From assembly GCA_015178975.1 (NCBI GenBank), contig WHVD01000021.1:558001-622000 (forward strand): a stretch of DNA of 64,000 nt, read 5' to 3'. Source of the stretch: Hysterangium stoloniferum. Lineage: Eukaryota > Basidiomycota > Agaricomycetes > Hysterangiales > Hysterangiaceae. Under the pieces are notes generated by a model, which worked only from the letters and a program-made list of their open reading frames with translations, made no database searches and was not told the DNA's origin. Of this stretch, positions 3,651 to 63,199 are shown piece by piece. How positions within the stretch are numbered: position 1 is the stretch's first letter; the number at the start of each line of letters is the position of its first letter. The position numbers and the translations under genes are program-made.

Positions 3651-3667
3651 CCTGTTCATTTCCCATG

Positions 3668-3935: not shown

Positions 3936-4089
3936 CAGCTGTCAACCAGCTGTCACTTTTGACAGCTGACAAGCCTACTGATGTACATATAACATATATA
4001 AGCTTGTAGTTAGTGACCTGAATAGTAACAACTTTCCTCAGACTTGTGTGTGTCACATGTCACAGTAAGTCACAGGTCACATTTAACAG

Positions 4090-4112: not shown

Positions 4113-4315
4113 GCTCTAGTACAGTATAACATTTTGCAAACTCGCTTCTTTTGAGTAAGTTTCAGCCTATACTTTATATTCCCCTGCCAGGCCCAGCCTT
4201 ATTGCTGTTGCTAGTAGGGAGGAACTTGTATGCCACTAAGGCTGAGTTTTCCTCGAGACTACCGTCTGGACCTCGAGTTAAATACCTTTTTTCTTAACTT
4301 CTTTGCGAGTTTGCT

Positions 4316-5388: not shown

Positions 5389-5464
5389 GTGGTGATCCGG
5401 GCCGGACCGTTCTTTTCCTATGAGGAAAAACTTATTATTTGACTACTAAGACCTGAACACGCAA

Positions 5465-7507
5465 ATGACTACGGGCAAGAATCAAACATCTAGGCCTTCA
5501 TCAACGCCGGGTAGCTCCATGCCTCGTCAAAAATCTTTTAACCTAGAACCACCCCGTAACGTCACCTTGAGGAAGTCTTCGTCGACTTTTCAAGGATCCG
5601 CTCCTCCGGAGGATTCCCCCGGAGTAGTAGCTGGATCATCTACGAACATTCCCCAGCTTCCTCCAGGATCACCTCCTCCAGAGGATTCACCCGGAGTAGT
5701 AGCTGGATCGTCAATGAACATTCCCCCTAATCCACCTGAGGAACGCTCATTACTCGAGCAGTTGGACACCCCTGGAGTTAACATTGAGCCTAATCGAGCA
5801 CCCACGCCCTTGCTCAGGTTCCCTCCGAGACAAGTCATCCTTAAGCAGTTCCTCGGAGGCCATATGGTTTACGCTCAACCCATCGACTTGCAATGGAATA
5901 CGTATTACACTGATCGAATCTCCGAGGATCAGGTTACTCCCTTTGTAGAGGAGTACAAAACGGATTACTCCATTCTACCAGTAACGGTAGCAACTTGGTT
6001 AGGTCGTTATCAAGCGATCCTATCGGCACGGGATTTATTCACGCGACCAGGGAACCTTGAGGAGTTAACCCGATCGATCCCCGAATGGTCTAACGAGGTG
6101 ACAACCGTTGTGGAAGGAGGAAGAAGAATTCTCAACTGGGATGTGTTTTCTCTATTCCTCGAAGCACTTCGTACGCATGACGATGTGTTGCAGATCCTGC
6201 ACGTCCTGCTCGGCGGGGATCATGTTGTGCCTAAGATTGATTACCAGTACATGTACATCCGTATGTTGGAGGAGTCTCTCAACGGAGCCACACCAAATCT
6301 ACCATTTGCATACTTCACCTTAAGAGGTCGACTGAGGCGAAATCAAAGAAGACTTGATAAAATGGTCTTGGAGGTACTTCTCCCTTATAACGACTCGATT
6401 CAAGTCCCCGATTCGCCTGTCTCCACGACTAATTCGTTCGTTCGCAATCTAAATGGGTCTCCTGATACTCGTTTCCTATGTTCTCTCAACCGTCCTGTGA
6501 TACTGGAGGACTTTCCGCTGGACATGAGGACGCAGGTGATAGAACGTCTTCAGGAAAAGAGGATTGAGGTCTGCGCTTCCTTCCACCAACCTCAACCGCG
6601 TCGACTCCTGAACACGATCGAGATCGAAAGACAAATCGCGACGGAACCCGGTTCCACACCTTTTCAGGGAGATCATCGCTCTCGCGTCGCGTTCGAGGGA
6701 ATTTCCAACAGCCCTAACTTCGGGAACGAGGTGACCACTGCCAGACACCGATCAGTCACCAGCAAGGGTCGACCGTCCTTTTCTACGGCATTCACTGAGG
6801 GTATAGCTGGCCCTGTCGCTGGTCGAGGATCGCTGAACTCAGACGATCCCCGCCATTCTCTGCCAATTACCTTGAATCCCTTCTTGCCATCAGGAGGACC
6901 TCCCAGCGATTCATCTGGGAGTTCGAATACTTCAGACCGGGGAGGGAACTCAGGACGTGGGGGGTGCCACAATGGAGTGCCTAATACCCCTTTTTGAACT
7001 CCGATGCGGTCTCGAGCTAGCGCGCTTATTGAGGACTTACCTAAGGACAAGAAGGTCACTCTTAACACCAATGACCTTAAGCTCAAATGGTCTGATCTCC
7101 CTGAATATGACGGAGCTCAATCCGAAGCCCTGGACTATATCATGGATATCATGAGTCTCGCGGAGATATCAGACTCTATGAGTGCGATCTTAGGAGTTGC
7201 TCTGCCAAGACGACTCAAGGGGCACGCTAAGGTCTGGTGGAGCACCTTAGACTGTGAGCATCGTACTGAATTCAGTCAATCTCATGGGTCGTTCCTTTGG
7301 GGTATCGTGGAAGGATTGCTCGGAACTCGTTGGCGTGAATCCTTAGCCTTAGAATGGGAAGCTATGAAATTTCGACAGGCTGGTCACGATCGTGAGACAC
7401 CCGTCCACTATATCCAACGGAGAGTTAAACTTTATCATTTCCTGTACAGGTTCCACCAGGACAGAGGAGATGAGACACACAGACTCATTCTCACGCTGCC
7501 TACGTAA
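5465..7507 (+). pseudogene. Gypsy A gag region
   Basis: The first part encodes a 510-residue frame with a Pro/Ser-rich N terminus. That terminus holds a near-perfect internal repeat (PPEDSPGVVAGSS twice, about 30 residues apart). The second part (from about 7004) has the helical look of the gypsy gag domain (for example LPRRLKGHAKVWW). Product: structural core protein of the virus-like particle. The nucleocapsid zinc knuckle is encoded further on, at the start of the long pol frame. Fossil; not fully open across its length. Confidence 0.75.
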
Positions 7508-7562
7508 TGGCTCTATCTTCTTCAAGGACAACCCATCGACAATATCATGAGTTTGCAGACTT

Positions 7563-10500
7563 ATGTATGCTAATAACCTGCAAGAAGCTCTGATTAACGC
7601 TTGGGTCCAAACACACCGGGAATGTTACAGGTTCCAGAAACCGCGCGTAATGTTATCGGAGGGTCAAGAATTGGATTTTAGAGTCACCGGCGACTCCTCT
7701 TCACCTAATCATATTCTCGTTAGTGAGACTAACGAGAGAGGCTCGACGAGAAGGACCGTTCTGGACGTCGCTGATCCAAAACAGGGAAAGTGTCACGGAA
7801 AAATGTTCTTCGAGAGGAGTAACAAGAGGAGTTCGGTCAAACCCACCAAGGAATGTTGGATATGCGGAAGTCCGGAGCATTTTAAGATAGACTGCCCTCA
7901 AGCTGGCAAAATGTCTCATTATGTCTCTATCAACAAATGCTCTGCACAGGATATGTCGGAGGAAGCTGAGGAGCAAAGGTTATATGAAGCGGTTCATGGA
8001 CTATCTATACAAGGACAAGTAAATAATTCTGATGATGAATTGACTTTTGTTTCCATTTATTCACCCCATGTCGAAGACAAATTAGTGAGGGAGGAAAATC
8101 AAACGACTGGTGAAGCTCTTCTGTCTGAAGCTTATGTATCCATACTCGCCGCAGATTTCTTCGAAAAAGGAGACTGGCTGAGTGCTCATCGGCAGGACCT
8201 TGAAGGCCTGACCGAGGACTACTGTCAGACTGGAGATTCTCACGAACAAATCAGTTCGAATTCGCTCTGTTCACCTGGAGCTGATGTTGACACGTTCCCA
8301 TTTGATCCCGGGAACCCCCCCGATTTACTACCATACGAGAACTCGGATTCGGAGGACAGCGACAATGATCCAGTATTGGATTCCCCTTCGAAGCATGTTT
8401 CTTGCCGAAGTGAACGCAGGAATGTAATCTTGTCCCTGCGCAAGGAAAGTAAGAGGCCTCGAATCCAATACCCTCGTCCCAGTCGTCTGATGAAGGAGGA
8501 TACTATGATCCTTTATCGAAAACGGGATCCTCCCAGCAGTTACTCTAGCATAGGAGTTGCAGCGCTCCATGTTTTCGGTCATGTAGGAACTCCCGATTCA
8601 CCTGAACACGTTAAAATTCGAATGGACACGGGAGCGGATCTTTCCCTTATATCGGAGGAATTCTACAAGGAGCTGCAGGGCATATATAAATTGAAACAAG
8701 GACTCAAGTTACGTCTAATCCAGCTCACGGGAAACGCTAAGGTTATCGGATATGTTAATATTCCCATTTACCTGGAGGACGACAGTGGAACGTTACTGAA
8801 GTTCGCGGCAGAAACTTATGTCGTTAGAGGAATGACGGTGCCAATTCTTTTAGGAGAAGACTTCCATATTAATTATGAAATTGGTACTCTAAGAGATCAG
8901 CCATTGGGATCTAGACTTATTCTCCCGGGACGACAGGGTTTTATTCCAGCCAGTTCTTCTAAGGAACCTCAACCTTTGACCTTCACCGTCAATAAGGCCC
9001 CTTTCGGGAAGCATGAGAAAGAGTCATCCAAACTCACCTCTCTCCCCGATAAAGGTGTGTGTACTGAAAGAGTCGCGCGAGCCTTGGAGGATTGCACTAT
9101 CGATCCAGAGTCAGCCAGATTAGTGCCTATCTTTGTTGAAGATCTAAAGGGCGAGGAATGGATTGTTGAGGGAATCGTACTGCAAAACGAGGACGGTTCT
9201 ATATTAGCCACACCGATCACGGCAATTTCAAGGAATAGTGCGGCAGTACCTTTAGCCAATCCATCGCTAACCCCTAAGACTATCCGACGAGGGGAGACAA
9301 TAGGGATAATTCATGACCCCGCTCGTTGGGCTCACAAGCCCAGGTCACTCGAGGAGAAAGGTTTAATGGTAGCAGGCGCGACCAAGATCGCACACCTTAT
9401 CGAAAGTCTCTCTCAACTTGAGGAGGACCGTCAAGTCGCCTCGGAAAGGCCTAAACCACCTGTTGAACCAGAGATTGCAGACGATTTCGAACCGCCTGGT
9501 CCTAAGACGGCTGCAGTGGCTGATAATGAGAAATTTGTCTCAGAGGATCTTCACAGGTTAGTCAATTTGGGACCGGATATACCAACAGAGGTCCTGCCAC
9601 GTCTCAGATCAGTGTTGACTGAGAACGTTAAGGCTTTCGGAGTCGACGGACGGTTAGGGCAAGTGGAATGTAGAGTCCCTGTCCCCTTGAAAGAGGGAGC
9701 CCAGCCCATATCCATGCCTATGTTTCCTTCATCCCCTGCCAATAGGAGAGTTATAGACGAGCAAATGGATACCTGGTTCGAACAGGGTGTCATTGAGCCA
9801 TCTAAAAGCCCCTGGGGAGTGCCAGCCTTTGTAGTATATCACAACGGTAAACTGCGGGTGGTCATCGACTATCGGAAACTTAATCATCTCACTGTTCCAG
9901 ACGAATTCCCTTTACCACGTCAATTGGAGATTATGCAGGCACTGTCGGGGTCAAATGTTCTTTCTTCTTTCGATGCGCTAGCCGGGTTTACTCAATTAGA
10001 AATGTTGGAGGACGATAAGCCCAAAACAGCCTTTAGATCCCATAGAGGGCTGTGGCAATTTAAAAGGATGCCATTTGGGCTCAGAAACGGCCCCTCCACA
10101 TTTCAGCGCATCATGCAAACAGTTTTAGCACCCTACTTGTGGATTTTTTGTTTAGTCTACATCAATGACATAGTCATATTCTCTAAGAACTGGGATGATC
10201 ATTTGCTTCACATGAATCAGGTGCTTGGCGCTATCACTTCGGCCGGTATCACTCTCTCTCCCAAGAAATGTTTTATCGGATATAATCCAATATTGTTATT
10301 GGGTCATAAGGTATCTAGGCTGGGTTTTTCAACTCACCAAGAAAAAGTTCGCGCTATATTGGAATTGGCCCCACCCACCAAGGTTTCTGATCTACAACGG
10401 TTCCTTGGAATGGTCCTTTACTTTTCAGCATATATACCATTCTATTCATGGATGGTGTCCCCTTTATTCTCGCTCCTAAAAAAGGGAACACCTTGGATGT

Positions 10501-12344
10501 GGACTGCTGAACATGTCCGAGCTTATGAGGATGTTAAAACCACATTAGGATCAGCTCCAGTGCTGGGACATCCAGTTAGTGGGATGCCCTACCGATTGTA
10601 TACGGACGCTTCGGATTTTGCCTTGGGTTGTTGCCTCCAACAAGTCCAGAAGATGGCTTTAGGAGACTTAGTGGACACTAAAATCTATGCCCAAGCCAAA
10701 TTGGCTTTTGACCGTGCGCAGGACATGCCATCCTTCATTCATCGGTACAAAACCAAACTGCCCGAGATTGAGTGGTCGGATTCGTGGGGATCCACTTTTG
10801 AGGCGACTGAAGTTACTGTTGAACGAGTCATTGCATATTGGAGTCGCACGCTGAAAAGTGCTGAGCGTAACTATTCTGCTACTGAACGGGAAGCATTAGC
10901 AGCAAAGGAGGGACTAGTCCACTTTCAACCTTTCATTGAAGGTGAACATGTCCTGCTCATTACGGACCATGCAGCTCTGCAATGGGCTAGATCTTACGAG
11001 AACACTAATCATCGACTAGCCGCATGGGGGGCGATATACGCTGCATTTCCAGGTCTCGAGATTTTGCATCAAGCAGGGAGAGCTCACAGCAACGTGGATC
11101 CACTGTCCAGACTCCCTTGGGTACCAGCCTTCATGAGCCCTATTAGAGATGATTTTCAGGCTATCACCTCGACCTCTCTGGACAAGAGTACTGAGGAAAA
11201 ATTATGGAAGGACGAACCCGCTAAGAAAGCGGTCTTCTCTACCATACTCGATTCTATGGAACCTTTCGGAGTAACTCAAAAGGTCCGACGGTCAGGATGG
11301 GATTCTCATAACGCAATAAGGAACGACCAGGAAGACGAGTCTGACTTCGCATTGCGTCATCCTCAGCTACTAATCAGCATCGAGGAGGGATATATAAAGA
11401 AATTTCTAGAGGGTTATTCAAGGGACCCAGTTTTCAGGAACCTCTACGCTTTAGATACCCCTTCACCCAACACGGTTGTTACTCCTTCTCACTATTTCGT
11501 GGGAGCAAACCGACTCCTGTACTTTCGCGACTCGGACTGGAAAAGTCGAGTCTGTGTACCCAGAACCAGGATTAACTCGATTCTAAGGTTGGTACATGAT
11601 AACCCTTTTGAGGGAGCACACGGCGGAGGCCAGCGGTTGTTCAACCTGATGAAAGACCGGTTCTTTTGGCCAAGAATGCTACAGGATTGCGTGTCATACG
11701 CACGTACCTGCAATATCTGCCAAAAAACCAAAGTCGATCGCACCACTCATCAAGGAGCCCTCAGACCGGCTGACGTACCTTTTAGGCCATTCGAGGTAGT
11801 TTCTATGGACTTAATCACTGGACTACCCGATTCAGGAAAGGATTCGTATTCTGCAGTCTTCGTCGCCGTTGATAAATTGATGCGTTACGCTATTACAATA
11901 CCTACCTTTTCGAACCTTACGGCTGAAGGATTCGCACGAATATTTGTCAAACAGGTAGCAAGCCCCTTCGGACTGCCCTCTCGAATAATCTGTGACTGGG
12001 ATAAGAGATGGACCTGCAGGTTTTGGCGGGAAGTCTGTAAGATCTATGGTACCACCCTTGCGGTATCTTCGGCTCATCATCCTCAAATGGATGGGCAAAC
12101 GGAGAATATGAATGCAACCATAGAACAGATGCTTCAAGCCTATTGTGCCTCTGCTAAGGAAAGCTGGTCCCAGTGGATTGAGGTAGTTGTTCACGCATAC
12201 AACTCGACTGTTCACAGTTCCACAAACTACGCTCCGGCCTTCTTATTAATGGGATACCTCCCAAGAGGAATGTCTCGAGTCCTAGGAGGTGACGAACCCC
12301 TAGTTCCTAGAGAACTATCAGACAGCCCTATGGCAGACCAATGA
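7563..12344 (+). CDS. Gypsy A pol: nucleocapsid knuckle, protease, RT, RNase H, integrase
   Basis: A 1593-residue frame. A zinc knuckle CWICGSPEHFKIDC is at residues about 98-111. The protease motif MDTGADLSLIS is near 353. Reverse transcriptase spans about 725-905, including VVIDYRKLNHL near 764 and PFGLRNGPSTFQR. RNase H starts near 1012 (YTDASDFALGCC). The integrase HHCC zinc finger is at about 1346-1386 (HDNPFEGAHGGG ... CNICQ). The integrase core is at about 1405-1560, ending with HHPQMDGQTE. The RT-RNase H-integrase order is that of Ty3/gypsy. The enzymes would copy element RNA into DNA in particles and insert it. It is unusually well preserved compared with other pol regions in this window, but still a fossil copy. 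Confidence 0.93.
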   Translation: MYANNLQEALINAWVQTHRECYRFQKPRVMLSEGQELDFRVTGDSSSPNHILVSETNERGSTRRTVLDVADPKQGKCHGKMFFERSNKRSSVKPTKECWICGSPEHFKIDCPQAGKMSHYVSINKCSAQDMSEEAEEQRLYEAVHGLSIQGQVNNSDDELTFVSIYSPHVEDKLVREENQTTGEALLSEAYVSILAADFFEKGDWLSAHRQDLEGLTEDYCQTGDSHEQISSNSLCSPGADVDTFPFDPGNPPDLLPYENSDSEDSDNDPVLDSPSKHVSCRSERRNVILSLRKESKRPRIQYPRPSRLMKEDTMILYRKRDPPSSYSSIGVAALHVFGHVGTPDSPEHVKIRMDTGADLSLISEEFYKELQGIYKLKQGLKLRLIQLTGNAKVIGYVNIPIYLEDDSGTLLKFAAETYVVRGMTVPILLGEDFHINYEIGTLRDQPLGSRLILPGRQGFIPASSSKEPQPLTFTVNKAPFGKHEKESSKLTSLPDKGVCTERVARALEDCTIDPESARLVPIFVEDLKGEEWIVEGIVLQNEDGSILATPITAISRNSAAVPLANPSLTPKTIRRGETIGIIHDPARWAHKPRSLEEKGLMVAGATKIAHLIESLSQLEEDRQVASERPKPPVEPEIADDFEPPGPKTAAVADNEKFVSEDLHRLVNLGPDIPTEVLPRLRSVLTENVKAFGVDGRLGQVECRVPVPLKEGAQPISMPMFPSSPANRRVIDEQMDTWFEQGVIEPSKSPWGVPAFVVYHNGKLRVVIDYRKLNHLTVPDEFPLPRQLEIMQALSGSNVLSSFDALAGFTQLEMLEDDKPKTAFRSHRGLWQFKRMPFGLRNGPSTFQRIMQTVLAPYLWIFCLVYINDIVIFSKNWDDHLLHMNQVLGAITSAGITLSPKKCFIGYNPILLLGHKVSRLGFSTHQEKVRAILELAPPTKVSDLQRFLGMVLYFSAYIPFYSWMVSPLFSLLKKGTPWMWTAEHVRAYEDVKTTLGSAPVLGHPVSGMPYRLYTDASDFALGCCLQQVQKMALGDLVDTKIYAQAKLAFDRAQDMPSFIHRYKTKLPEIEWSDSWGSTFEATEVTVERVIAYWSRTLKSAERNYSATEREALAAKEGLVHFQPFIEGEHVLLITDHAALQWARSYENTNHRLAAWGAIYAAFPGLEILHQAGRAHSNVDPLSRLPWVPAFMSPIRDDFQAITSTSLDKSTEEKLWKDEPAKKAVFSTILDSMEPFGVTQKVRRSGWDSHNAIRNDQEDESDFALRHPQLLISIEEGYIKKFLEGYSRDPVFRNLYALDTPSPNTVVTPSHYFVGANRLLYFRDSDWKSRVCVPRTRINSILRLVHDNPFEGAHGGGQRLFNLMKDRFFWPRMLQDCVSYARTCNICQKTKVDRTTHQGALRPADVPFRPFEVVSMDLITGLPDSGKDSYSAVFVAVDKLMRYAITIPTFSNLTAEGFARIFVKQVASPFGLPSRIICDWDKRWTCRFWREVCKIYGTTLAVSSAHHPQMDGQTENMNATIEQMLQAYCASAKESWSQWIEVVVHAYNSTVHSSTNYAPAFLLMGYLPRGMSRVLGGDEPLVPRELSDSPMADQ

Positions 12345-12371
12345 ATCCTCGAGCTAGAAAATCATCGGCAG

Positions 12372-12890
12372 ATGGCACGAGATTCAATTGCTCGAGCCCA
12401 AGAGATTCAAGCACGAGCGTATAACAAGAAGCAAAGACCTGTAGAAGATATCTCTGAGGGAGACTTTGTATTGGTGAACCCCCACTCCCTCGAACTGGTG
12501 GAAGTTAAGGGAACAGGGAAGAAACTAATACAAAGACGGATTGGACCATTCGAGGTCCTTGAGAAATTGAACTCTCAAGTATTTAGGCTTAAGATTCCCC
12601 CGGAGTATCCTATGCATCCAGTCATTAATCGGGATCATCTGCGGAAATATCAACCCTCTCCTTCCAAGCTAGGTCCGAGACCCCAACTTGAGAACCTAAG
12701 AGAGTTGAAATCAGATCATGAAGAATATGAAGTCGAAGCTATTGTTGGACATAGGAAACAGCGAAATCGTCTGCTATTTAGGGTGCGCTGGAAAGGTTAT
12801 GGACCCGAGGAGGATTCGTGGTTAAGCAGCACTGACCTTAGAAATGCCCTGGCACTTCTGAGGGCGTACAAGGCGCTGTTCAACATTTAA
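12372..12890 (+). pseudogene. Gypsy A integrase C-terminal part with chromodomain
   Basis: The frame covers the integrase C-terminal segment (GDFVLVNP ... RRIGPFEVLEKL ... HPVINRDHLRKY). It ends in a chromodomain (YEVEAIVGHRKQRNRLLFRVRWKGYGPEEDSW), typical of chromoviruses. The chromodomain is thought to direct integration to heterochromatin marked by histone H3 methylation, which fits the dense nesting here. Confidence 0.85.
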
Positions 12891-13110
12891 TGGGATATAT
12901 GTGCTCAAGGAATCATCTATTCCATCTCTTTTGTAACTTCCTTTCAGAAATATCTCAGTTATTCAGTGAGCCATCTCATTGGCTTTTATTCTTTTCATTT
13001 TTCCATCCCTTCGGTCGATTGGGACAACCATTAATTGGCAGCGGACACATTTCCCCAAAAACCCGGCCACAATTAATGAATTTTATTTAACGACCAACTG
13101 AGCGGAGTTT

Positions 13111-13131
13111 CAATTCAATATATATAAAAAA
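13111..13131 (+). promoter_or_regulatory. TATA-like run upstream of the gypsy A extra coding region
   Basis: TATATATAAAAAAG lies about 110 bp upstream of the ATG at 13237, in a 340-bp gap after the chromodomain part. The intervening sequence is pyrimidine-rich, as in many fungal leaders. It could be an internal promoter for the third coding region. This is inference only. Confidence 0.4.
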
Positions 13132-13236
13132 GTACACGTAAATTCGCATAAATTTTCTTTATCTTTCACACCACGTCCTTCACCTATCTACAGCCCTTCC
13201 CTCTAGCTTTAACTTTACCACTTTTATCGTGCTATA

Positions 13237-15156
13237 ATGCTCCCTTTCCAACAAAACAAGCAAGTCCTCCCTAAGTTCAAAAAGGTCCCACGAGCCCCGA
13301 CAGCCAGTACATCCACGACCAGCGGGGGATTCATCACCCACATGCCTCGTACAGACAATGTCGAGAGCAATTGGGGTACCCAAGAATCAACCCCCCTGTC
13401 GACTTTCTCCTTTGGTGATGAGCCGGGGAAAAATACCGGTACGGATTGGAGCAAGCCGTTAGGCCCCTCCGTCAGACCGTCATCTGAGGAAGTCGCTGCT
13501 ATCATGCGGAAGCAGGAAATGTTTATGGAAGAACACAACGCAAGGAGGCTCACCCGCAAAAGAGAAAGGCGCGCTGAGTATAGAAGTCAACAGGAGGCGA
13601 GGGGAGCAAGAGAAGGAGTCCCCTCCAAGTGACAGCGGCGTGAGTACAGAGAGCAATGCGGAAACAGAGCTTCCGCGCCAATCCTTCCCCCCCTAGGAGA
13701 GAAATGGGCCGACTTCGCAGAGACTGATGATAGTGAGGGTGGGACGCCTTGCATTAGGATGACGGGAACCAAGAGCTGGAAGGAGAAGGAGGGTATCATC
13801 TTTTATGACTGGGAGCTACTTCGACGCATTAAGTTGCAACGCATAGTTCTTACCCGAGGGGACGGTCAAATGTTGCCCCAACGAGAAAAAGGATACCGTA
13901 GGGGACCAATTGAGTTCTCCTCGGATGAGGATGAGGAGGAGGACGAGAACGGGAAAGGTGTGTATAGCATCCAATCTCTGGGAGAGGATTGCCATGAAGG
14001 GTTCCTTCTCCCGTCTAAAGTTCGCTTCGTAACCAGCGACCCCAACCAAAGACAAACGTGGAGACCGTCATCCAGAGTATGGAGGGGTCACCACCCTAGT
14101 CAACAGTCACTGGAATGCAAACCTTCCACGATTCCGGTCCCACATCTCTTGTCAACGTCGAGGCCCCTTCCCATCATTCACCCTACACACACTCCCTCAG
14201 CCCCGATTCTAACGCCTCATTTACCTCCCTCTTCAAAAGCTATACCGGTACCGACCCAACTTCCGCCGTCACCGGGTATCCCTCCCGACTCTCCGTATTC
14301 ATATTCCGTGTCCTTGGGTAGCCCTATCCAGGACCTTCCACCAGAGCAAATGGATGTCGATTTGGACCCCCCTACACCGGACGTCATCGATCCCATGGCA
14401 AGCAGAAAGGCGAAGGAGAAGCAGAAAGCCACCACTCCTCTCTGAGAACAATCCCCTATTCCCATCCCTGACAGCCCGGTTCCCCTCACTGAGCCCGTAT
14501 CCACAACTTTCTGGATGCGAGTAGCTGTCAACTACCCTTCCGAACAGTTTCCTGTCAGAAGGGTGCTATCGCAGCTCGTGCCAGTACTTCAGCAACCGGT
14601 CCTTCAAGGGAGCCTCAAGGGTTGTCGCGGTCTGGCTCCATTGTCGGAGAAAATGGAGGATTTCTATCTCTCCTTCGAGGATCTCACAGAAGGGAAGAAC
14701 TTTGCACGAGCAGCACAGGAGATTAAACTCTCTATGTTCCGGCACATCATAGTGGAGCTTCACCGTCTGCCCCCAGACTCAGCGAATGTCCTCTCTATTG
14801 CTGGCTTAGTAGATTTACTCGAGGCCCTCGTCCTGACGCCTCTCACAGAGACCACTATGCAGCCACACGTTCCTGCCCCACTGCCCACGTCTTCGTTTCC
14901 CCTCCCCAATGCTCCTCTTCTCACGCGGATTTCCGCTCCACCAGTTAGTGTCCGCACAGTCGTTCGTTGCAGAGAGAAAGCCTACAGACAATGGGCCGAC
15001 TCCTTGTACAGGAATTCTAGTGATTTGGCTCAGGCGAGAATAGCTGCATCCTTCAGAGTAAAAAGGGAACGATGGGGAAATATCATTTTGGACCTTGGGG
15101 GATCCTCACAGGAAGCTTGGGGTGGCATCCCAGATGCTCTTCGACACCTTGTATAG
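13237..15156 (+). pseudogene. Gypsy A extra coding region downstream of pol (third ORF)
   Basis: About 1.9 kb of mostly open sequence on the element's sense strand, between the chromodomain and the 3' LTR. The encoded segments include a basic helix-like stretch (ARRLTRKRERRAEYR), an acidic patch (SSDEDEEEDENG), a long Pro-rich stretch and a more globular last part. That last part contains EDFYLSFEDLTEGKNFARAAQEIK and ends near 15156, only about 25 bp before the 3' LTR. I recognise no family: no envelope-like signal or membrane segment, no zinc finger. Base composition resembles gag and pol of the same element, so it seems native to it. It could be a second gag-like or regulatory protein. Broken in a few places. 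Confidence 0.55.
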
Positions 15157-15181
15157 CACATCCCTTCGAACTGGGGGGCAC

Positions 15182-16035
15182 TGTAAAGGGTATGCATATA
15201 TGCATAATTGGACTAAGGAATAATAGTTGGAATATAGTATTTTATTATTTATCTTTTATTTTCTTTCTTTACATTCTTTCTATATTTCGAGCATACCTTT
15301 ATTTTGTAGTTCGAAGCTTTGTGTATACGTATGGGCGCTCTCAGCGCCAAAGGGATAGATAACTTTTACCCAGCAGACACCACCTCGTAACGACTCAGAC
15401 GTTGAATAGCGAGAGGTGTCAAGGGTAGTATCTCAGCTACCATAAGGTGTTGGAATGTGTACATCATGAACAACATATTCCGAAGATCAGATCTATTTTT
15501 GGGACAACAAAGGAGTTGTGTCACTTACCCTTTCCTTTGTTCCACTGCTAATTGTTCTCACTGTTTCATTGTTCTACCAAAGATATATAAGCAGTAGATA
15601 GTATTTGACTGTACTTTAGTCTATTATACAATATTTAGGTCTTACTTTCCAACATAAGGTAGTATTCTCTGGGCTACTAATAGCCTTTTGGACTCGAACC
15701 GCTAAGGTCAAGTTCCGCCTTCAAGACTTTGCGCTCATCGACACTACAGTCGACGAGCGCTACTATTACTCTATCCTAGATACTCAGTCTTTAGCTGAGT
15801 ATCTTACTTATTTCTAGCTACTAGTTGTACCGTAAAAGGTCAACTCATTATCTTACTGTTCTAAGCCGTCGCGAGCAACTATACAGTTGCTCTTGAGGCG
15901 TGCAGTGCGTTCTTATACTAGTACTAACAGTCTAGTAGCCTATAGTATTGTACTGACGGTCAATACTCTCTAATAGTAGTTGAATAAACACTATTCTTCG
16001 TATATCGAGCGGTCAGAATCTAACGACTCTTCACA
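15182..16035 (+). repeat. 3' LTR of gypsy A, with a solo LTR inside
   Basis: It matches the 5' LTR from TGTAAAGGG to TCTTCACA, but is longer by 212 bp because of the insertion at 15448-15654 plus its 5-bp duplication. A purine run (GGGGGG, 15174-15179) lies just upstream. Flanked outside by GTCCC. Confidence 0.93.
15448..15654. mobile_element. 207-bp solo LTR inside the gypsy A 3' LTR
   Basis: It begins TGTTGGAATG and ends CTTTCCAACA. The 5-bp duplication TAAGG flanks it (15443-15447 and 15655-15659). It has a TATATAAGC TATA-like motif. Size and termini suggest a copia-type LTR left by recombination between the ends of a complete element. It is the third layer of this nest. Confidence 0.88.
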
Positions 16036-19317: not shown

Positions 19318-19734
19318 TGTTAAAACTGCCTCCACTGTCTCCAAGACCTTCTGGAACCTTCTAGAACCTTCTAGAAGCTTCCAGCATGTTCCAGAGTATT
19401 CCCTGTTCATTTCCCATGACAGCTGTCAATCAGCTGTCAGTTTGTATTCTAGCTGTCAATCAGCTGTCAGTTTGTATTCTAGCTGTCAATCAGCTGTCAG
19501 TTTGTATTCTAGCTGTCAATCAGCTGTCAGTTTGTATTCTAGCTGTCAGTTTCCATTCAAGCTGTCAATCAGCTGTCACTTCTGACAGCTGTCAACCAGC
19601 TGTCACTTTTGACAGCTGACAAGCCTACTGATGTATAACATATATAAGCTTGTAGTTAGTGACCTGAATAGTAACAACTTTCCTCAGACTTGCGTGTGTC
19701 ACATGTCACAGTAAGTCACAGGTCACATTTAACA
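19318..19734 (+). repeat. 3' LTR of the copia element
   Basis: 417 bp, TGTTAAAAC...TTTAACA. It is preceded by the polypurine run AGATCAGGGGGG and followed by GAACT. It carries the same heat-shock-element-like array (about 19349-19401) and about four 30-bp repeats. Confidence 0.92.
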
Positions 19735-20186: not shown

Positions 20187-21010
20187 TGTTACGACTGGAC
20201 AATCCCACCAGACTCCGGGCACTAACCCATATGCCCCCACACCCTACACACACCAATCATCTGTTTATAGGATTTCCTGCCTGGACTCCATACATCAAGA
20301 CTTGTTACATTCGACCTCATTACGACACATATCAGTCACCGGACTTCCCCCGGACTCCGTCTCTGTCTATGTCTGTCTTTGTCCCACGCATCAGTCACCG
20401 GACCCCACTCAGAATCCCGTCACCACTCTAATCAAGCCCCGTTCCCATTTTAGTCAAATGACCTGTCACAAGTTAGGACTCCGCTCCCGCTCTGTTTCCC
20501 GTTATCGGTTATGCTTTGTCACGATTCGGACTCCACTCCATTCCATCCCGTTCCTAACACCAATTTGGTGTTTACTATTCCCGTTTTATGTTTTGCTCAT
20601 TTTGTTTCATTATTACTGGATTCGGTATGACATTTACTCCACGGTCTATTTAAACTGGCAGATGTTGTACATACAATCCAGTCAGAAAATTAGCTTAGAT
20701 TCCCCCCAGTAATCTAATCCATTTTCCGCTCTAAACCCTTGCTTGATTCACACCACTCACACTAGTCGGAGCCCACAGGCTCCAGCACATCTATCTCTCT
20801 CAACTATCTCGACTCACGATTCACGACCTCCAACCTACAACCTACAACCTACAACCCACGAACCCCGCCCAGACTCCCCGGGATTCCCATCTGCCTGTTC
20901 GAAATTGGACAACACGATTTAGCGAGGGTGCAGCCTATAAGCTGAAGCCAAGTCCTACCAGATATCCCGCGGGTTTCTCTGGAGACTTGCCCTGTGTGTG
21001 TATCCTAACA
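20187..21010 (+). repeat. 5' LTR of gypsy B copy 1
   Basis: 824 bp. A TATTTAAA box (20647-20654) lies about 33 bp upstream of a CA dinucleotide at 20679-20680, the likely transcription start. It ends TATCCTAACA. Confidence 0.92.
20680..20690 (+). promoter_or_regulatory. Predicted transcript 5' end complementary to the priming site
   Basis: AGTCAGAAAAT at the predicted transcription start is the exact reverse complement of ATTTTCTGACT at 21013-21023, two bases inside the 5' LTR. In Tf1/sushi elements the first 11 nt of the RNA fold back and prime reverse transcription in just this arrangement. The same pair is present in copy 2 (46132-46142 with 45806-45816) and copy 3 (48378-48388 with 48725-48735). 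Confidence 0.65.
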
Positions 21011-22379: not shown

Positions 22380-25300
22380 AAGAGTTTACTCACCTCAACG
22401 CATCCGCTCTTTCACATTCTGATTCATTTTTCGTTAAACTTATGTCTAATATGATCCCGAAATTCGTTTTTTCAGCTCTCATAGATTCCAGCTCGACTCA
22501 TTGTTTTTTAGATACAAAATTCATGCAAAAAAATATGTTGTCAACTTATTCAATAAAGCCCGTCGGCCTCCGCCTCTTCGATGGCACAAGTAATTCTGTT
22601 GTTACCCAAGCTTGTGATTTATCCATCTGTTTCCCGTGTGGAACATCTCAATTGGTCACTTTCTATGTGACCCAGTTAGACTCAAGTTGCTCGGTGGTCC
22701 TAGGACATAACTGGCTTACCCACTACAATCTGTTGATTGACTGGATAGCTAACAGTATAACATTCCGGACTCCTGCAGCAGCCGAGGAAACTGCACCCAT
22801 CCTGGCCTCCACGGCACCCATGGCCTTCCCGGCACCTGCAGTCTCAAGGACTCCTGTGATCCCTACGGCACCCATAGCTTCCCCGGAACCCACGACACCT
22901 CCGTCTATTTCTCTGATTAATGCTGCAGCTTTTATTAGGGCTTCAAAAATGGACGGGTCCCAGGTGTTCACTATCAACTTGAAAATTGATGAAGCAACTG
23001 GATGTTTTTCAACCCCGGTATCTGAATCTGAGCAAGCCGCTGACCTAGAAGGCATCCCGGAGAAATATCATGACTTTGCAGATGTTTTTAGCAAGCGGAA
23101 AGCTGACCGGCTTCTGCCTCACAGAGAATACGACTTAAAAATCAATCTCGAAGATGGCCCCCAGCCACCCCTAGGACATATTTACCCGCTCTCATCCACG
23201 GACCTTTCCGCAATCCGCGATTTCCTGGATGAACATTTGTCCATAGGCTTTATCAGACCCTCAAAGTCTCCTTTTGGAGCACCTGTTCTGTTTGTCAGAA
23301 AAAAGGATGGATCTCTTAGACTATGTGTTGATTTCAGAGGCCTCAATGCTGTCACCAAAAAGGATAAATATCCACTCCCACTCATATCTGATCTGCTCGA
23401 TGCTCTGCGGAACGCCTGGATTTACACCAAAATTGATCTCAAACACGCCTATCATTTGGTCTGGATCGCCGCGGGTGATGAATGGAAAACCACTTTTAAA
23501 ACCCGCTATGGGGCCTTCGAGTGGTTGGCGATGCCCTTTGGACTCACCAATGCTTTGTCTGTTTTTCAGCATTTTATCAACGACATTTTCTCCGACATGC
23601 TTGATGTATGCGTCATTGTTTACTTGGATGACATTCTTATCTACTCTGAGAATCCTGCGGAACATGACAAACAAGTCCATGAAGTTCTCTGGAGACTCAG
23701 ACAACATGGTTTATTCACGAATGGTAAAAAATGTACTTTTGACACAGACTCTGTGGAATACCTGGGTTTCATGATGGGACCCAATGGACTCCACATGGAC
23801 GAAACTAAAGTGCAAGTCATCAAAGATTGGCCTGAACCCCGAAAAGTCAAAGATATACAATCCTTTCTCGGCTTTGCCAATTTTTACCAACGGTTTATCT
23901 GTGGATATTCCGACATCACAGTACCCCTTACCCATCTTACGCATAAGGGTACTCCGTGGAATTTCAATGATAAGTGTCAAAAAGCTTTCAATCTTTTAAA
24001 AAATTCTTTTTCTTCAGCTCCTATTCTGTCGCATTGGAAACTGGACTTCCCGCTCATTGTTGAAACGGATGCCTCCGATTATGCACTTGGAGGCATTCTG
24101 TCTATCCAGGACTCCAATGGAGAAGTCCACCCCATGGCCTTTCTGTCCCGGACTTTCACCAGAGCAGAGTTCAACTACAATGTTCATGATAAAGAACTCC
24201 TGGCAATCTTTTCAGCTTTCAAAGCGTGGTGACACTATTTGGAAGGCTCGGGAACTCCTATTGATGTTGGAACAGATCACAAAAACCTGGAATACTTTTC
24301 TACTACAAAAAGTTTGACCTGCCGGCAGGCCTGCTGGTCTGAATATCTATCTGCCTTCAATATGATTATCTGTTTTCGACCCAGCCATCTCGGCGGCAAA
24401 CCCGACGCTTTAACTAGACGATGGGACGTCTATCCTAAAGAGGGGAGCAATGACTATGCCACGGTAAACCCGCACAACCTGAAACCTATTTTCACGAATC
24501 AACAACTTACCACATCGGTCCACACAACTTTCCTTGTTGTAACAGATCACAAAAACCTGGAATACCTTTCTACCACAAAACCTTTGACCCATCAGCAGGC
24601 CCGCTGGTCTGAATATCTATCTGCCTCAACATGATTATCCGCTTTCAACCTGGCCATCTCAGTGGCAAACCCGATGCTTTAACTAGACGATGGGACCTCT
24701 ATCCTAAAGAGGGGAGCAATGACTATACCACGGTAAATCCACACAACCTGAAACCTATTTTCACGAATCAACAACTTACCGCATCAGTCCGCGCAACTTT
24801 CCTCATCAATCCCATTGTCTGTGGAATTATCATTATGGATATCGAGAAGTTACATCAAGATATTCTATCGGCAATTCCGCTAGACCCGATAACTAAAGCT
24901 CACCTTGACAATCCCGTGGACCCCGATCAACCTTGGTGGTCTCTTGATCAGCATGGTTTCATTAGACTTGACGATCGCATCTATGTACCGGACTCCGACG
25001 GCCTCTGCCTCAGGATCCTTCAATACAAACATGATCATCCACTCTCAGGACATTTCGGGTACAACAAAACTCTATCATTAATAAGAAGAGAATACACTTG
25101 GCCCAGACTCTGTGGATTCATTAAGCACTATTGTAAATCTTGCACTACTTGTCCCCACTCGAAATCTCAGTGACACAAGCCATATGGCCTTTTGAAACAG
25201 CTCCCGGTACCGGAACACCCATGGAATTCTATCTCTATGGATTTCATTGAACACCTACTGGATTCCGAAGGCTTTTCCGCCATTCTAGTCATTGTTGACA

Positions 25301-26319
25301 GATTCTCAAAACAAGGTATATTCATCCCTACATATAATACAATTACCTCCGTGCAGTTAGCAGAACCTTTCATTATCCACGTATTTTCCAAGCATGGAGT
25401 TCCATCCCACGTGACTTCCAATTGAGGATCAGAGTTTGTGTCTCACTTCTTTAGATCTCTCAGAAAATCCTTGGACATGAAATTACATTTCACGTCTGGA
25501 CATCACCTGGAAGGTGACAGACAAACTGAACACATCAACCAGACATTGGAACAATATCTCCACGTATATTGCAATTATCAACAGGACAATTGGAAATCCT
25601 TGTTACCACTTGCAGAATTTGCTTACAACAATGCACCCTCAGCCACTACTGGTGTTTCCCCATTCTTTGCAAATAAAGGATATAATCCAAATATTACAGT
25701 ACATCTAGAACGAAATCTTGCCTCTGCTCGCACTCAAGAGTTCACCACAGACCTCCATGAGCTCCATGAGGAACTCCGGACTGCAATTAAGTCCGCCCAA
25801 GAGCAATACCAACTTTCAGTGGACAGACACTGGATCCCACCACCCAACTTCAAGATTGGCGACCGTGTTTATGTCAAAGCTCAATTCTTCCGGACTACCC
25901 ATCCATCGAAAAAGCTTGCTGAAAAATATTTAGGTCCATTTGAAATTATTGCACAAGTAGGTTCAGTCTCTTGGACACTACGGCTTCCATATACCATGTG
26001 CGCGGTACACGCGGTATTTCATGTTTCTATGTTAGAACCTTGTACTGCTAACACTATCCCGGATCGTGTGCAATCTCCGCCTCCTCCAGTCATTATTGAC
26101 GGAGAACCCGAGTTTGAAATCTCACAGATTTTAGATTCAAAAATTGACAAGCATCGATGCACTTGTAAACTGCTTTACTTGGTCAAGTGGGTGGGTTACA
26201 AGGGCACCGATGAAGAAACCTCATGGATTTTGGCCACGGAACTCGGTAATGCCACAGAAATCATTACTGACTTTCATACAGCTTACCCACTCACACCTGG
26301 ACCACTATCGTCTGTCTGA
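22380..26319 (+). pseudogene. Gypsy B copy 1 pol: protease, RT, RNase H, integrase, chromodomain
   Basis: The protease region (FSALIDSSSTHCFLDT) is near 22470. Reverse transcriptase is at about 23240-23800 ([28 protein letters not shown] near 23620; [11 protein letters not shown]). RNase H is near 24060 (VETDASDYALGGIL). The integrase zinc finger is at about 25030-25165 (HDHPLSGHFGYNKT ... CTTCP) and the core at about 25210-25720. The C-terminal GDRVYVKAQFF part is followed by a chromodomain near 26100-26290 (LLYLVKWVGYKGTDEETSWI). The close similarity to copies 2, 3 and 5 defines the family. Several breaks. Confidence 0.9.
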
Positions 26320-26521: not shown

Positions 26522-27473
26522 TCAGTCTACATTTATGGGACTGTGTTTTTTCCCTGCCTCCTCAGCTACCTCCTCAGGAAGCTCCACGACCTCCGCGGCA
26601 ACCCCGTCCTCATCTGACCCGGCATCCTCGGAACTCCCGACTTGCGGCTCTTCATACACATAGCCACCATACTCCGCCAGGAACTTCCAAAACTCCTCGC
26701 AGAGTGCACACAGTTCCTTCGCCACCACTATGTGGACCTTGTTGCTCTTCCAGAGCAACTTGTTTTGGGCCTCTGCCTTCGGCGATCCGTCCCAGGACCT
26801 CGTCCAACCCGGAAAACCCATCTGACCTGCTGATGTCCCACACCCTGGACCCCATGGCCTGCTCATGAACAAGTGAGCACCTCGCTTTGAGGTGTGCACA
26901 TTGGAAGCAGCCCGGACCCCGGCTGGATTTTCGGTTGCATTCAGTGTTCTGGTTATTACAACTGGAACACTGCGGGTCATTCCATGTGGGTAGGTGGGCT
27001 GGTGCCACCTTCCTTGCTTTCTGTTGATATGGTTAGTTCCACGGTATATCCCATGGACCCATTGCTTACCTTTTGGGGGCTCTCTGGCTCCCCCTCAGAC
27101 TCAGACTCGACCTCTGTCACCTTGCACTGAAAATAACAAGTCAGTGATATATAAAAAAAAAAAATGACAAGTCAAAGTTGGGACTTACCTTTCCCGTGAC
27201 AATTGTGGCTCTGTCTGCAGCCACCCGCGCAGCCTCCTCCTCATCCTTCTTCCTCTGCCTCTCAGCCTCTTCCTCCACAGCCAATGCTGCCTGGTACTCC
27301 TTGTCCAAAGCCTCTTCAGCCTCTCTGGCCTCCCTCTCTGCTTCTTCACATAGTCGGCGCTGCTCTTCTCACCACGCCAAAGGTTGGGCCGTGCTCCAAG
27401 GTGCCCGATATGGAGTGCCTGTGGAGGGCCCAGCAGTTGGCATCGCCCGTCTTGGTGTTGGCTTTGGTCCCAT
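26522..27473 (-). CDS. Antisense accessory gene of gypsy B copy 1, zinc-cluster pattern
   Basis: Minus-strand gene between pol and the 3' LTR. Reading starts with an ATG at 27473 (MGPKP). Exon-like intervals are separated by intron-like stretches at 27127-27188 (GTAAGT...CAG) and 27021-27069 (GTAAGC...CAG, with a CTAAC branch-like site). The first part is A/E/K/R-rich and helical-looking. The last part has CSSCNNQNTEC, nine residues, then CFQCAHLKARC, which is exactly C-X2-C-X6-C-X9-C-X2-C-X6-C as in fungal Zn2Cys6 DNA-binding domains. It ends with an acidic SSEDAGSDEDG segment. A TATA-like box lies about 55 bp upstream (27525-27532). Function unknown; a DNA- or RNA-binding regulator is inferred. 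As part of a fossil element it need not be functional in this copy. Confidence 0.6.
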
Positions 27474-27524
27474 TTTTTCGATGATGGGGGTAATAAAGAA
27501 GAAGAAATTTCTATTTTTTCAAAT

Positions 27525-27532
27525 TTATATAT
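27525..27532 (-). promoter_or_regulatory. TATA-like box of the antisense gene, copy 1
   Basis: Minus-strand TATATAAA about 55 bp upstream of the antisense ATG, outside the LTR. Equivalent boxes occur in copy 3 (near 54958-54973) and copy 5 (62214-62220, TATAAAA, ATG at 62271). Confidence 0.5.
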
Positions 27533-28773
27533 AGGCTCATCGTGTTTGAACCTTTCCTTCCAGATCACATGACTCTTTGACACATACGTGTAACCGACAT
27601 GACTTTTGACACATGCACATAGCCGACAAGAACTTATCTAGGCCTAGAGCCTCTTTGGGACTTCAGCATAAAGGGAGGGTACTGTTACGACCGGACAATC
27701 CCACCAGACTCCGGGCACTAACCCGTACGCCCCCACACCCTACATGCACCAATCGTCTGTTTATAGGATTTCCCACCCGGACTCTGTACGTCAAGACTTG
27801 TTACATTCAACCTCATTACGACACATATCAGTCACCGGACTTCCCCCGGCCTCCATCTCTGTCTATGTCCATCTTCATCCCACGCATCAGTCACCAGACC
27901 CCACTCAGAATCCTGTCGCCGCTCTAATCAAGCCCCATTCCCATTTTAGTCAAATGACCTGTCACAATTTAGGACTCCGCTCCCACTCTGTTTCCTGTTA
28001 TGGGTTATGCTTTGTCACAATTCAGACTCTGCTCTGTTCCGTCCCATTCCTAACACCAATTTGGTGTTTACTATTCCCGTTTTATGTTTTGCTCATTTTG
28101 TTTCATTATTACTGGATTCGGTATGACATTTACTCCACGGTCTATTTAAACTGGCAGATGTTGTACATATGTACAATCCAGTCAGAAAATTAGCTGAGAT
28201 TCCCCCCAGTAATCTAATCCACTTTCCGCTCTAAACCCTTGCTTGATTCACACCGCTCACACTAGTCGGAGCCCATGGGCTCCGGCGCATCTGTTATGTA
28301 TTTCTAAGCCTTTTTTTATTTTTTAAACCAATCTCCCCTAACAAATTGCGAAAATGAATAAATAAATGTAATTATATTGTGACGATAAAATTGTACAATA
28401 TTTGTTTAATTTATCTTGAATTTATACAATTTATTTTGTATTTTTATCTTATAAATTGAGCAAGTTGTTGAATTTTTACCTTTTTATTCTTTTTTGATTA
28501 ATATGTCGGCGACTCAGCGCTTATTCACAACGCGTGAGTAATCATGTGACATTCACATGACATTTCCAACTCCGACGCCGACAAAACGCGATTTGAAATA
28601 CTCGTGCATTATCAAGGTAAAATATATATTTATATATTATTATAATAAAATTATTATATTTATAATTGACTAAAAGTAAATATAATAATTATATAATAGT
28701 ATAAAGCCGGCCACCTGGTGCTTATTACATGGCGTGCGGGAAACTCGTCACAATGAGTGACACCATCGCAACA

Positions 28774-29091
28774 TGTGACAGTTGTCACAAGGGTGCGGGA
28801 TGGTCACAAAGGTGCGGGATGGTCACAGAGGTGCGCGACAGTCACAGAGGCGCGTGACAGTCACAGAGGCGCGTGACAGTCACAGAGGCGCGTGACAGTC
28901 ACAGAGGCGCGTGACAGTCACAGAGGCGCGTGACAGTCACAGAGGCGCGTCGACAGTCACAGAGGCGCGCGACAGTCACAGAGGCGCGCGACAGTCACAG
29001 AGGCGCGCGACAGTCACAGAGGCGCGCGACAGTCACAGAGGCGCGCGACAGTCACAGAGGTGCGCGACAGTCACAACGTGTGACAGTCACA
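28774..29091. repeat. 19-bp GC-rich tandem array in element C
   Basis: The unit GACAGTCACAGAGGCGCGT is repeated about 14-15 times, with variants at both ends. It is very rich in CpG (GCGCG) compared with the surrounding AT-rich DNA. Short ORFs through it (TVTEARDSHRGA repeats) are by-products of the period. Confidence 0.9.
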
Positions 29092-29219
29092 AGATGCGAA
29101 GGGTGTCATGCGCACGCACAGGTGCGAGAGCATTATGTCATCATATATGCTACTGCAACAAAAACAGGAAACTCTCTAAAACATTCCAGTAGCTTCTAAT
29201 GGAATAGTAGTTAATAGGT

Positions 29220-53955: not shown

Positions 53956-54915
53956 TCAGTCTACATTTATGGGACTGTGTTTTTTCCCCGCCTCCTCAGC
54001 TACCTCCTCAGGAAGCTCCGTGACCTCCATGGCAACCCCGTCCTCATCTGACCCGGCATCCTTGGAACTCCCGATTTGCGGCTCTTCATACACATAGCCA
54101 CCATACTCTGCCAGGAACCTCCAAAATTCCTCGTGGAGTCCACACAGTTCCTTCACCACCACTATGTGAACCTTGTTGCTCTTCCGGAGCAACTCATTTT
54201 GGGCCTCAATGCCCTTGGCGATCCATCCCAGGATTTCATCCAATCTGGAAAATCCATCCGACCCGCTTATGTCTCATGCCCCGGACCCCATGGCCTGCTT
54301 GTGAACTAGTGAGCACCTCACCTTGAGGTGCACGCATTGGTAGCAGCCCAGACCCTGGCCAGACTTTCGATTACACTCTGTGTTCTGGTCATTGCAACCG
54401 GAACACTGCAGATCATTCCGCATCGGAAGACGGACTGGTGCCGCCTTCCTTGCCTTCTGTTGTTATGGTCAGTTCCACAGTTATCCCACGGACATGAGGC
54501 TTACCTTTTGGGGGCTCTCTGGCTCCCCCTCAAACTCAGACTCCACCTCTGTTGCCTTGCGCTGAAAATGCCAAGTCAAAAGAAAACGACAAGTTGGAAT
54601 ATTGGGACTTACCTTTCCTGCGAAAATCACAGCTCTGTCCACAGCCACCTGTGCCTTCTCCGTGGCCACCCGTGCAGCCTCCTCCTCATCTCTCTATCTC
54701 TGCCTCTCAGCCTCCTCCATGGCCAATGCTGCCTGGTACTCCCTGTCTAAGGCCTCCTTGGCCTCCCTGGCTTCCCTGGCTGCTTCTTCATGAAGCTGGC
54801 ATTGCTCTTCTCACCATGCCAAGAGTTGGGCCACACTCCAAGTTGCCTGATGCACAGTACCCGTGGAAGGCCCGGTGGTTGGCATCACCCATCTCGGTGT
54901 TGGCTTTGGTCCCAT
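53956..54915 (-). CDS. Antisense accessory gene of gypsy B copy 3, zinc-cluster pattern
   Basis: Same position and orientation as in copy 1. ATG at 54915 (MGPKP), an A/E/K-rich first part, splice-like ACTTAC/CTGAAA borders on the plus strand near 54607-54615 and 54563, then a last part. The last part holds six cysteines in the C-X2-C-X6-C-X9-C-X2-C-X6-C pattern (CSGCNDQNTEC and CYQCVHLKVRC, about 54310-54415). It ends acidic, and the C-terminal HSPINVD is identical to copies 1 and 5. The strongest conservation is in the cysteine part and the C terminus. Function unknown. Confidence 0.55.
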
Positions 54916-62270: not shown

Positions 62271-63199
62271 ATGGGACCAAAGCCAATGCCAAGAAGACCA
62301 CCATATTAGGCACCTCTCACTGTGGCCCAAATACTGGCTCAGTGAGAGGAGCAGTGCCGACAATGAGAAGAGGTGGAAAGGGAGGCCAAGGAGGTTGAGG
62401 AGGATTTGGACAGGGAATATCAGGTGGCATTGGCTGTGGAGAAAGCGGCTGAGGAGCAGAGGAAGAAGGATGAGGAGGAGGCTGCATGGGTTGCCATGGA
62501 GAAAGCCTGGGCGGCTGCAGATTGGGCCATGGTTGCTGTGGGCAAAGTAAGTCCCATAGATATAACATGTCATTTTAACTGACTTGGTATTTTCAGTGCA
62601 AGGCAACAGAGGTCGAGTCCAAGTCCAAGGGGGAGCCGGAGAGCCCCCAGAAGGTAAGTCTCAGGTCCATGGGAATTCCAGGAAGCTAACCACAGCAACA
62701 GAAGTCCATGAAAGTGGCACCAGTCCAACTACCTACGAGGAATGACCCACAGTGTTCCGGTTGTAATGGCTGGAACACTGATTGCAATCAAAAGTCTAGG
62801 CAGGGACCAGGCTGTTTCCAGTGCATGCACCTCAAAGTGAGGTGCTCACTCATTCATGAGCAGCCCATGGGGTCCATGGCATGGGAAACAAGTGGGTCAG
62901 ATGGGATTTTGGGACTGGATGAGGTTTTGGGGTGGATCGCTGAGGGCATAGAGGCCCAAAACAGGTTGCTGAGGAAGAGCAACAAGGTGCAAATAGTAGT
63001 GGCCAATGAGCTCCATGGGCTCCATGATGAGTTTTGGAAATTCCTCGTGGAGTATGGTGGCTATGTGTATGAAGAGCCACAGATCAGAAGTTCTGAGGAT
63101 GCTGGGTCAGATGAGGATGGGGTGCCTGCGGAGATAGCGGAGCTCCCTCAGGAGATGGCTGAGGTGGGGAAAAAACACAGTCCTATAAATGTAGACTGA
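62271..63199 (+). CDS. Antisense accessory gene of gypsy B copy 5, zinc-cluster pattern
   Basis: The clearest copy. ATG at 62271; an A/E/K-rich helical first part (EREAKEVEEDLDREYQVALA and so on). Intron-like intervals follow at 62547-62596 (GTAAGT...CAG, 50 bp, with CTGAC branch-like) and 62654-62701 (GTAAGT...CAG, 48 bp, with GCTAAC branch-like). The three exon-like intervals are each a multiple of three long. The last contains CSGCNGWNTDC, nine residues, CFQCMHLKVRC (about 62754-62845), a middle helix-rich part (ANELHGLHDEFWKFLVEYGGY) and an acidic end, stopping at 63199. The pattern matches fungal Zn2Cys6 zinc clusters. Role unknown; regulation of element or host transcription is inferred. 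It may not be functional in this old copy. Confidence 0.62.

Follow-up and report, generated by a model that had tools for sequence, protein, structure and literature searches.

An intron-containing antisense gene with a zinc-cluster-like cysteine module in a chromovirus family of Hysterangium stoloniferum

Genes that lie between pol and the 3' LTR and are read from the opposite strand have been described in several LTR retrotransposons, namely Grande (gene23), RIRE2, Retand (TRP28), PvRetro13 and Boty (PMC7264820, PMC11963269, available parts). In Retand, 97% of the recently active clusters encode the antisense TRP28 protein, which is predicted to bind DNA (PMC11963269, available part). The gene that we describe here, borne by a gypsy family (family B) of the basidiomycete Hysterangium stoloniferum, resembles these plant antisense ORFs in its place and strand, its occurrence in most copies, a promoter upstream of the gene (as reported for gene23) and a suspected nuclear or DNA-binding role; the plant ORFs differ in their hosts and in their TRP28 or SMC domains, and the available parts of their descriptions mention neither a zinc cluster nor introns (PMC7264820, PMC11963269). 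A fungal gypsy example exists as well, the Boty-like elements of Botrytis cinerea, found also in Sclerotinia, which carry the antisense gene brtn at the same position (PMC7264820, PMC8365987, available parts), and so the original prediction of the family B gene, which knew of no such description in fungal gypsy elements, does not stand on this point. The host of brtn is an ascomycete, and the likeness to brtn is one of position and strand, by description alone, in the parts of these papers that were available.

The window analysed is a stretch of 64,000 nucleotides, in which three copies of the antisense gene were located: copy 1 at 27473-26522 on the minus strand, lying opposite gag-pol, and two further broken copies at 53956..54915 on the minus strand (copy 2) and 62271..63199 on the plus strand (copy 3). 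The coordinates first proposed for the three were confirmed, as was the site of the gene in family B elements, between pol and the 3' LTR on the strand opposite gag-pol, which is the arrangement of the antisense ORFs described above. The element bearing copy 1 is flanked by a 5' LTR that spans at least 20187..20792 and a 3' LTR that spans at least 27683..28292, both on the plus strand and recognized by comparing them with each other (they share two stretches, with identities of 92% and 94%). A polypurine tract (27666..27682, plus strand) adjoins the 3' LTR; its edges are approximate, with the LTR edge taken from a comparison with L067, a copy elsewhere in the genome. The end of pol (25438..26319, plus strand) encodes an SH3_Tf2-1 domain and a chromodomain (Pfam Chromo, 28.3 bits against a cut-off of 25.1), and family B is therefore a chromovirus. 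From the end of this chromodomain ORF, at 26319, to the antisense gene of copy 1 there is a gap of ~200 bp.

Several other features of the window were recorded. In the element that bears copy 1, ~270 bp of pol are tandemly duplicated (24265-24803, 89-90% identical). Another chromovirus, with LTR parts that are 98% identical, occupies 4746-15952; between its chromodomain ORF and its 3' LTR it holds two sense ORFs, of 228 aa (13759-14445) and 213 aa (14515-15156), neither of which matched a Pfam family at E<=0.01. Near element edges, at 3610-3969, 19391-19589 and 28746-29113, there are short arrays of 30-bp and 19-bp tandem units.

The antisense gene consists of three exons, given here for copy 1, on the minus strand. 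Exon 1 (27189..27473) begins with MGPKP, is rich in E and A, is probably helical and contains an in-frame stop in this copy. It is followed by intron 1 (27127..27188, GTAAGT...TTTTCAG), the acidic exon 2 (27070..27126, EVESESEGEPESPQK) and intron 2 (27021..27069, GTAAGC...CAACAG), both introns being in phase 0 and bounded by GT-AG signals. Exon 3 (26522..27020) encodes a basic KARK, the cysteine module, a probably helical region (EAQN..FLAEYGGYVYEEP), an acidic tail and the terminal HSPINVD; in copy 1 it is frameshifted, such that the cysteine part and HSPINVD fall in different frames. The start MGPKP, the cysteine spacing, the acidic stretch and HSPINVD were seen in all three window copies, as had been proposed, and the three share one exon-intron layout with two GT-AG phase-0 introns each. 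All three are pseudogenes with in-frame stops. Across 61 copies read in the genome, the intron 1 pattern was recovered in 57, with a branch-like CTRAC motif near the 3' site in 42 of these, and the intron 2 pattern in 56, of which 55 had CTRAC. Open copies are predicted to encode proteins of 286-309 aa from the three exons.

These 61 copies comprise the three of the window, the 38 best DNA matches and 20 picked for an open exon 3. They were drawn from searches of the 111.1 Mb genome, one at the DNA level, in which the best 40 of 801 candidates were scored (matches of 79-100% identity), and one at the protein level with exon 3, in which the best 150 of 1273 candidates were scored. The gene was open over its full length in 16 of the 61. 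Of these, 14 belong to the 20 copies selected on exon 3 and two to the 41 window and DNA-match copies, 10 of which had a start or splice site unmatched by the pattern and were not judged for openness. Among the best 150 protein matches, exon 3 was stop-free in 104 by our own count, and 42 of the remaining 46 contained TGA stops only, as CpG decay of CGA would yield. When copies were compared with their closest open relative, 1033 of 5850 differences were CpG transitions, suggesting that the element is methylated by its host. Part of the wide differences between copies that had been noted outside the shared motifs is thus CpG decay.

An identical score of 308.3 bits, with no stop, was common to 20 of the best 150 matches. 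This points to a recent burst of elements bearing the antisense gene. One of these is L067, whose LTRs (821 bp) are identical and whose gag (431 aa), pol (1275 aa) and antisense gene are all open; a target-site duplication, GCTGA, was read from its flanks. By eye, the sequence just inside its 5' LTR (L067 7760-7770) does not start with TGG, and its primer site may be unusual. Presence of the gene was also assessed from the pol side, by a search with the pol end in which the best 40 of 1634 candidates were scored, 39 of them without the window's own. An exon-3 match lay beside 21 of these 39 pol ends, and the gene was found in all five fetched of the other 18 (26 of the 39 ends checked); like the antisense ORFs described above, it is present in most copies of its family and conserved. 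Beyond this genome, a word-based search of ~5.8 billion proteins, part of which scored the ~8000 top word-sharing candidates and which would miss repeat-masked genes and distant relatives, returned only three H. stoloniferum fragments, and in IMG/VR there were 11 pattern matches and no relatives.

Selection on the gene was measured with an omega-like ratio, in which missense and synonymous changes are set against the expectation from the same trinucleotide changes. Among the 16 open copies this ratio was 0.48 for 97 pairs and 0.53 for six disjoint pairs, bearing out the anticipated selection between copies, and codon-level neutrality was not seen; in the other frames it was 1.4-1.7, save for one sense frame to which we return below. 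With one set of older copies (34 of 38) used for both, the ratio was 0.53 for the antisense gene and 0.42 for pol; L038, L011, L014 and L018 were excluded (the pol of L038 was misaligned). Between deep classes, represented by L073 and L074 against four open genes at 25-29% nucleotide divergence, it was 0.46-0.63. Decayed copies compared with their nearest open copy gave 0.60, with stops at 0.88 of expectation, a ratio that mixes both phases and is a poor neutral control, because even the closest open copies have diverged too far. Divergence at non-CpG sites, calculated from 200 random pairs of 41 copies, was 0.069 at positions 1 and 2 and 0.189 at position 3 of exon 1, 0.036 and 0.154 in exon 3, and 0.174 and 0.114 in the two introns, compared to 0.020 and 0.056 in pol, 0.064 in the LTR and ~0.05 in the promoter; the exons are therefore constrained and the introns evolve like third positions. 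Distances in different segments correlated poorly (Spearman 0.07-0.31). To summarize, the antisense gene is coding and under purifying selection in active lineages; these substitution patterns, together with its many DNA and protein matches in the genome, set it apart from a reading frame due to chance.

The gene and the element around it differ in their divergence. The block that contains it (L067 1519-2712) shows a neutral divergence ~3x that of pol or the LTR in the same elements. Grouping 60 copies by their gene at 0.07 gave 13 clusters, with pol differing by 0.029 within and 0.032 between them, and the gene by 0.046 and 0.094. Of five elements picked for a pol end 93-94% like that of copy 1, three carried genes that are only 73-74% identical to L050. 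In 40 older copies the association with gene class fades into pol (ratios of 1.15, 1.12 and 1.07; p of 0.008, 0.08 and 0.15) and persists in the LTR (ratios of 1.13-1.50; p of 0.002-0.024). These data show that old gene classes are largely uncoupled from a nearly uniform pol, most simply explained by recombination that separates the gene from pol. The depth of the classes could reflect either maintained classes or a local excess of mutation, and the association with the LTR could stem from plain linkage via U3, which also predicts it.

Having established that the gene is coding, we turn to its cysteine module, C-X2-C-X6-C-X9-C-X2-C-X6-C in the window copies (26877..26969 in copy 1, minus strand). 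Its 2-6-9-2-6 spacing fits the rule for Zn2Cys6 proteins, C-X2-C-X6-C-X5-12-C-X2-C-X6-8-C. Among readable copies, retention was 98-100% for each of the six cysteines and complete for K173, though the open copy L038 is without the second cysteine. Between the deep classes the module was the best-kept part of exon 3 (identity of 0.77-0.90 versus 0.56-0.67). Within the family, residue retention was 0.86 in the module versus 0.85 after it, with a non-CpG codon mean of 0.89 and many other residues at 1.00, and the omega-like ratio was 0.57 in the module versus 0.54-0.72 in other segments. Nine of 10 sequences matched the Pfam family Zn_clus (PF00172) at E<=10, with a best E of 0.0095, and the scores shown, 7.6-16.9 bits, lay below its gathering cut-off of 21; the full-length protein of L038 had no Pfam match. 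The four alignments shown place the module's first triad of cysteines at profile positions 16-34, in the second half, and when the halves were scanned separately one of five pieces matched. Zn2Cys6 proteins carry basic residues between the second and third cysteines of the first triad. This feature was not found in the antisense module, where the first triad (CSGCNDRNTEC) has one Arg and a Lys/Arg pair lies in the second (HLKARC). A swap of the two halves is plausible from the alignments, the cluster being pseudo-symmetric.

Compared to Zn2Cys6 proteins, therefore, the antisense protein is alike in its six cysteines within the spacing range and in having a basic patch and a probable helix close by, and unlike in that its module is mid-protein, scores below the cut-off and has seemingly swapped halves. 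Because of these scores and the apparent swap we do not claim membership of PF00172. The Zn2Cys6 domain that had been predicted is weakly indicated, a label half earned: the spacing holds, and the profile cut-off was not reached. A profile search of the PDB retrieved no solved zinc-cluster protein and only a talin fragment (E 0.79), and a structure model built from six rows was unusable (pLDDT 41). A match of the E/A-rich exon 1 of L015 to LprI, below threshold (19.2 bits, cut-off 22), was set aside as an effect of composition. The same genome holds repeated genes in which Zn2Cys6-like modules stand in tandem, several to a gene (L069 ~3940-4600, L070 ~3135-3800 and further PF00172 matches). 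As a source of the antisense gene, such host-type tandem genes showed no clear relation by eye.

Upstream of the gene we found a TATA-type box, TATATATAAA (27524..27533, minus strand), the presumed antisense promoter, 51-60 bp before the start and followed by a CT-rich tract. The box lies within the element and outside the LTR, and it is present in the copies inspected except L042 and L045, which are truncated at the 5' end. Just upstream of it are the 27-bp direct repeats of L067, which were then read in the window (27576..27628, minus strand) as a pair spaced by 29 bp, both containing the triplet CGG (TGTCGGYTAC....ATGTGTCAAA), the usual half-site of Zn2Cys6 factors. A scan of L067 for further copies of the 27-bp repeat found none, and hence gave no target in the LTR. 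The 200 bp that precede the start are strongly conserved, which invites a reading as promoter constraint; this reading was dropped because, with CpG sites removed, the region equals the LTR and pol position 3. At non-CpG sites the promoter and its repeats (~0.05) showed no extra conservation relative to the LTR (0.064) or pol position 3 (0.056). Since their conservation is not above LTR level, the repeats are candidate binding sites only.

What the protein does can be approached from this anatomy. Tentatively, we place first, as a possibility somewhat short of an even chance, that it is a nuclear DNA-binding regulator of its own element, an activator or anti-silencer rather than a repressor. 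Family B is a chromovirus that bears a third gene, on the back strand, with a presumed internal TATA-type promoter of its own and two introns. The genomic RNA that is reverse-transcribed would be the sense strand, in which the antisense introns are retained, and the gene would be copied along with it; copying of sense-strand RNA is the established logic by which a spliced antisense gene can persist through retrotransposition. Judging by its acidic and basic patches, its zinc-cluster-like module and a probably helical segment, the protein may enter the nucleus and dimerise. It might then bind DNA of the element itself, perhaps at the CGG-bearing direct repeats near the promoter and at LTR sites, and keep the element expressed against CpG methylation by the host. 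We infer each of these steps, from transcription, nuclear entry, dimerisation and DNA binding to the target and the direction of regulation. In favour of this reading are the open copies, the intact element L067 and the apparent burst, the purifying selection, the retained cysteines and K173, the occurrence at the pol ends checked, the link of gene class with the LTR and the CpG decay. Against it stand the sub-threshold Zn_clus scores, the lack of a relative among solved structures, a module that within the family is constrained no more than its neighbours, and a promoter and repeats whose conservation is unremarkable.

The direction could be the reverse. An unlikely reading, though one to be weighed seriously, is that the gene is a self-limiting repressor that lowers the activity of its own element as copy number grows, giving class-specific immunity with an outcome like that of Ty1, by another mechanism. 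Antisense transcription would by its placement oppose sense transcription, and the sharing of one pol by diverged gene classes recalls Ty1 and Ty1', whose gag is divergent and whose restriction is class-specific (PMC7055915, available part). Selection within the element would be weaker for a repressor than for a helper. The acidic segments also look more like activation regions. Anti-silencing or activation is thus our first choice and self-limitation the second, because the CpG decay would point to methylation by the host.

Quite unlikely, too, is a replication helper with no transcriptional role, acting in nuclear import, as an integration tether or as a chaperone of Gag or nucleic acid, its cysteines forming a structural zinc site. 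The sub-threshold Zn_clus scores and a constraint near that of pol would suit such a protein; the gag of L067, however, already shows a CCHC motif by eye, pol has a chromodomain for targeting, and a separately promoted antisense gene better suits a regulator. That the antisense transcript rather than a protein acts, through dsRNA or transcriptional interference, has been considered for other antisense ORFs (PMC7264820, available part) and is very unlikely here, where missense changes are about half of those expected, frame and cysteines are kept and the introns vary like third positions. Even less probable is a recently captured host gene riding as a neutral passenger, for although introns and a promoter of its own look host-gene-like, the classes are many and deep with selection between them, and the gene was present at all 26 pol ends checked of 39. 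Finally, it is scarcely credible that the antisense frame is incidental, the mirror of a sense-strand coding feature. In its favour, a sense frame that shares the wobble position is nearly as low as the gene frame (0.53), the third-position test separates the strands poorly (1.10 versus 0.98), and a second sense frame, the one in register, lacks stops in 10 of the 16 copies with an open gene. Yet the first of these frames has 1-6 stops in every one of the 16 (spliced sequence), the second has a ratio of 1.44 rather than below 1, the chromodomain ORF stops short of the gene, and the GT-AG introns and TATA box match the antisense strand, in keeping with the original prediction that the motif is more than such a mirror.

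The regulator that we favour has counterparts among elements of other kinds. HBZ of HTLV-1 is a bZIP factor encoded by a spliced antisense gene of a reverse-transcribing element. The HBZ antisense promoter lies in the 3' LTR (PMC7264820, available part), unlike the internal promoter of family B, whose protein is zinc-cluster-like. Among the Pfam matches of the antisense proteins there was no bZIP family, and the HBZ pairing of bZIP protein and 3' LTR promoter was not found. VANDAL elements are DNA transposons. Their VANC protein in Arabidopsis is likewise encoded by an element and acts on the DNA of related elements, at targets that are often tandem repeats and vary between related elements (PMC5735166, available part); the element is of another kind, the host is a plant, and the likeness is by description alone. 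Ty1 copy-number control shares with the repressor reading a self-encoded control and diverged classes, its factor being gag-derived (PMC7055915, available part). A bolder proposal, which we hold to be doubtful, would join these strands: the LTR, antisense promoter and antisense zinc-cluster protein as an exchangeable cassette, with many old specificity classes on a nearly uniform pol, encoding a sequence-specific regulator with a half-swapped Zn2Cys6 module whose diversity of specificity is maintained by selection. Such a regulator would be the counterpart, in fungi, of anti-silencing by VANC or of a copy-number control that is specific to each class.

A literature search, in which brtn (Zhao et al. 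2011) was covered through the later papers cited above, brought up no fungal zinc-cluster antisense gene. The question of whether LTR retrotransposons of plants and fungi obtain functional proteins from their antisense genes can be put directly to family B, which offers 150 or more scored copies, what looks like a recent burst with open genes, introns as internal neutral yardsticks and old classes on a nearly uniform pol; if the protein does regulate, fungal retrotransposons would carry zinc-cluster-like transcription factors of their own. Set beside the known systems, the gene is of a kind already described, and what is new, so far as we searched, is its zinc-cluster-like protein, its two introns, its basidiomycete host and the combination of old gene classes with an almost uniform pol.
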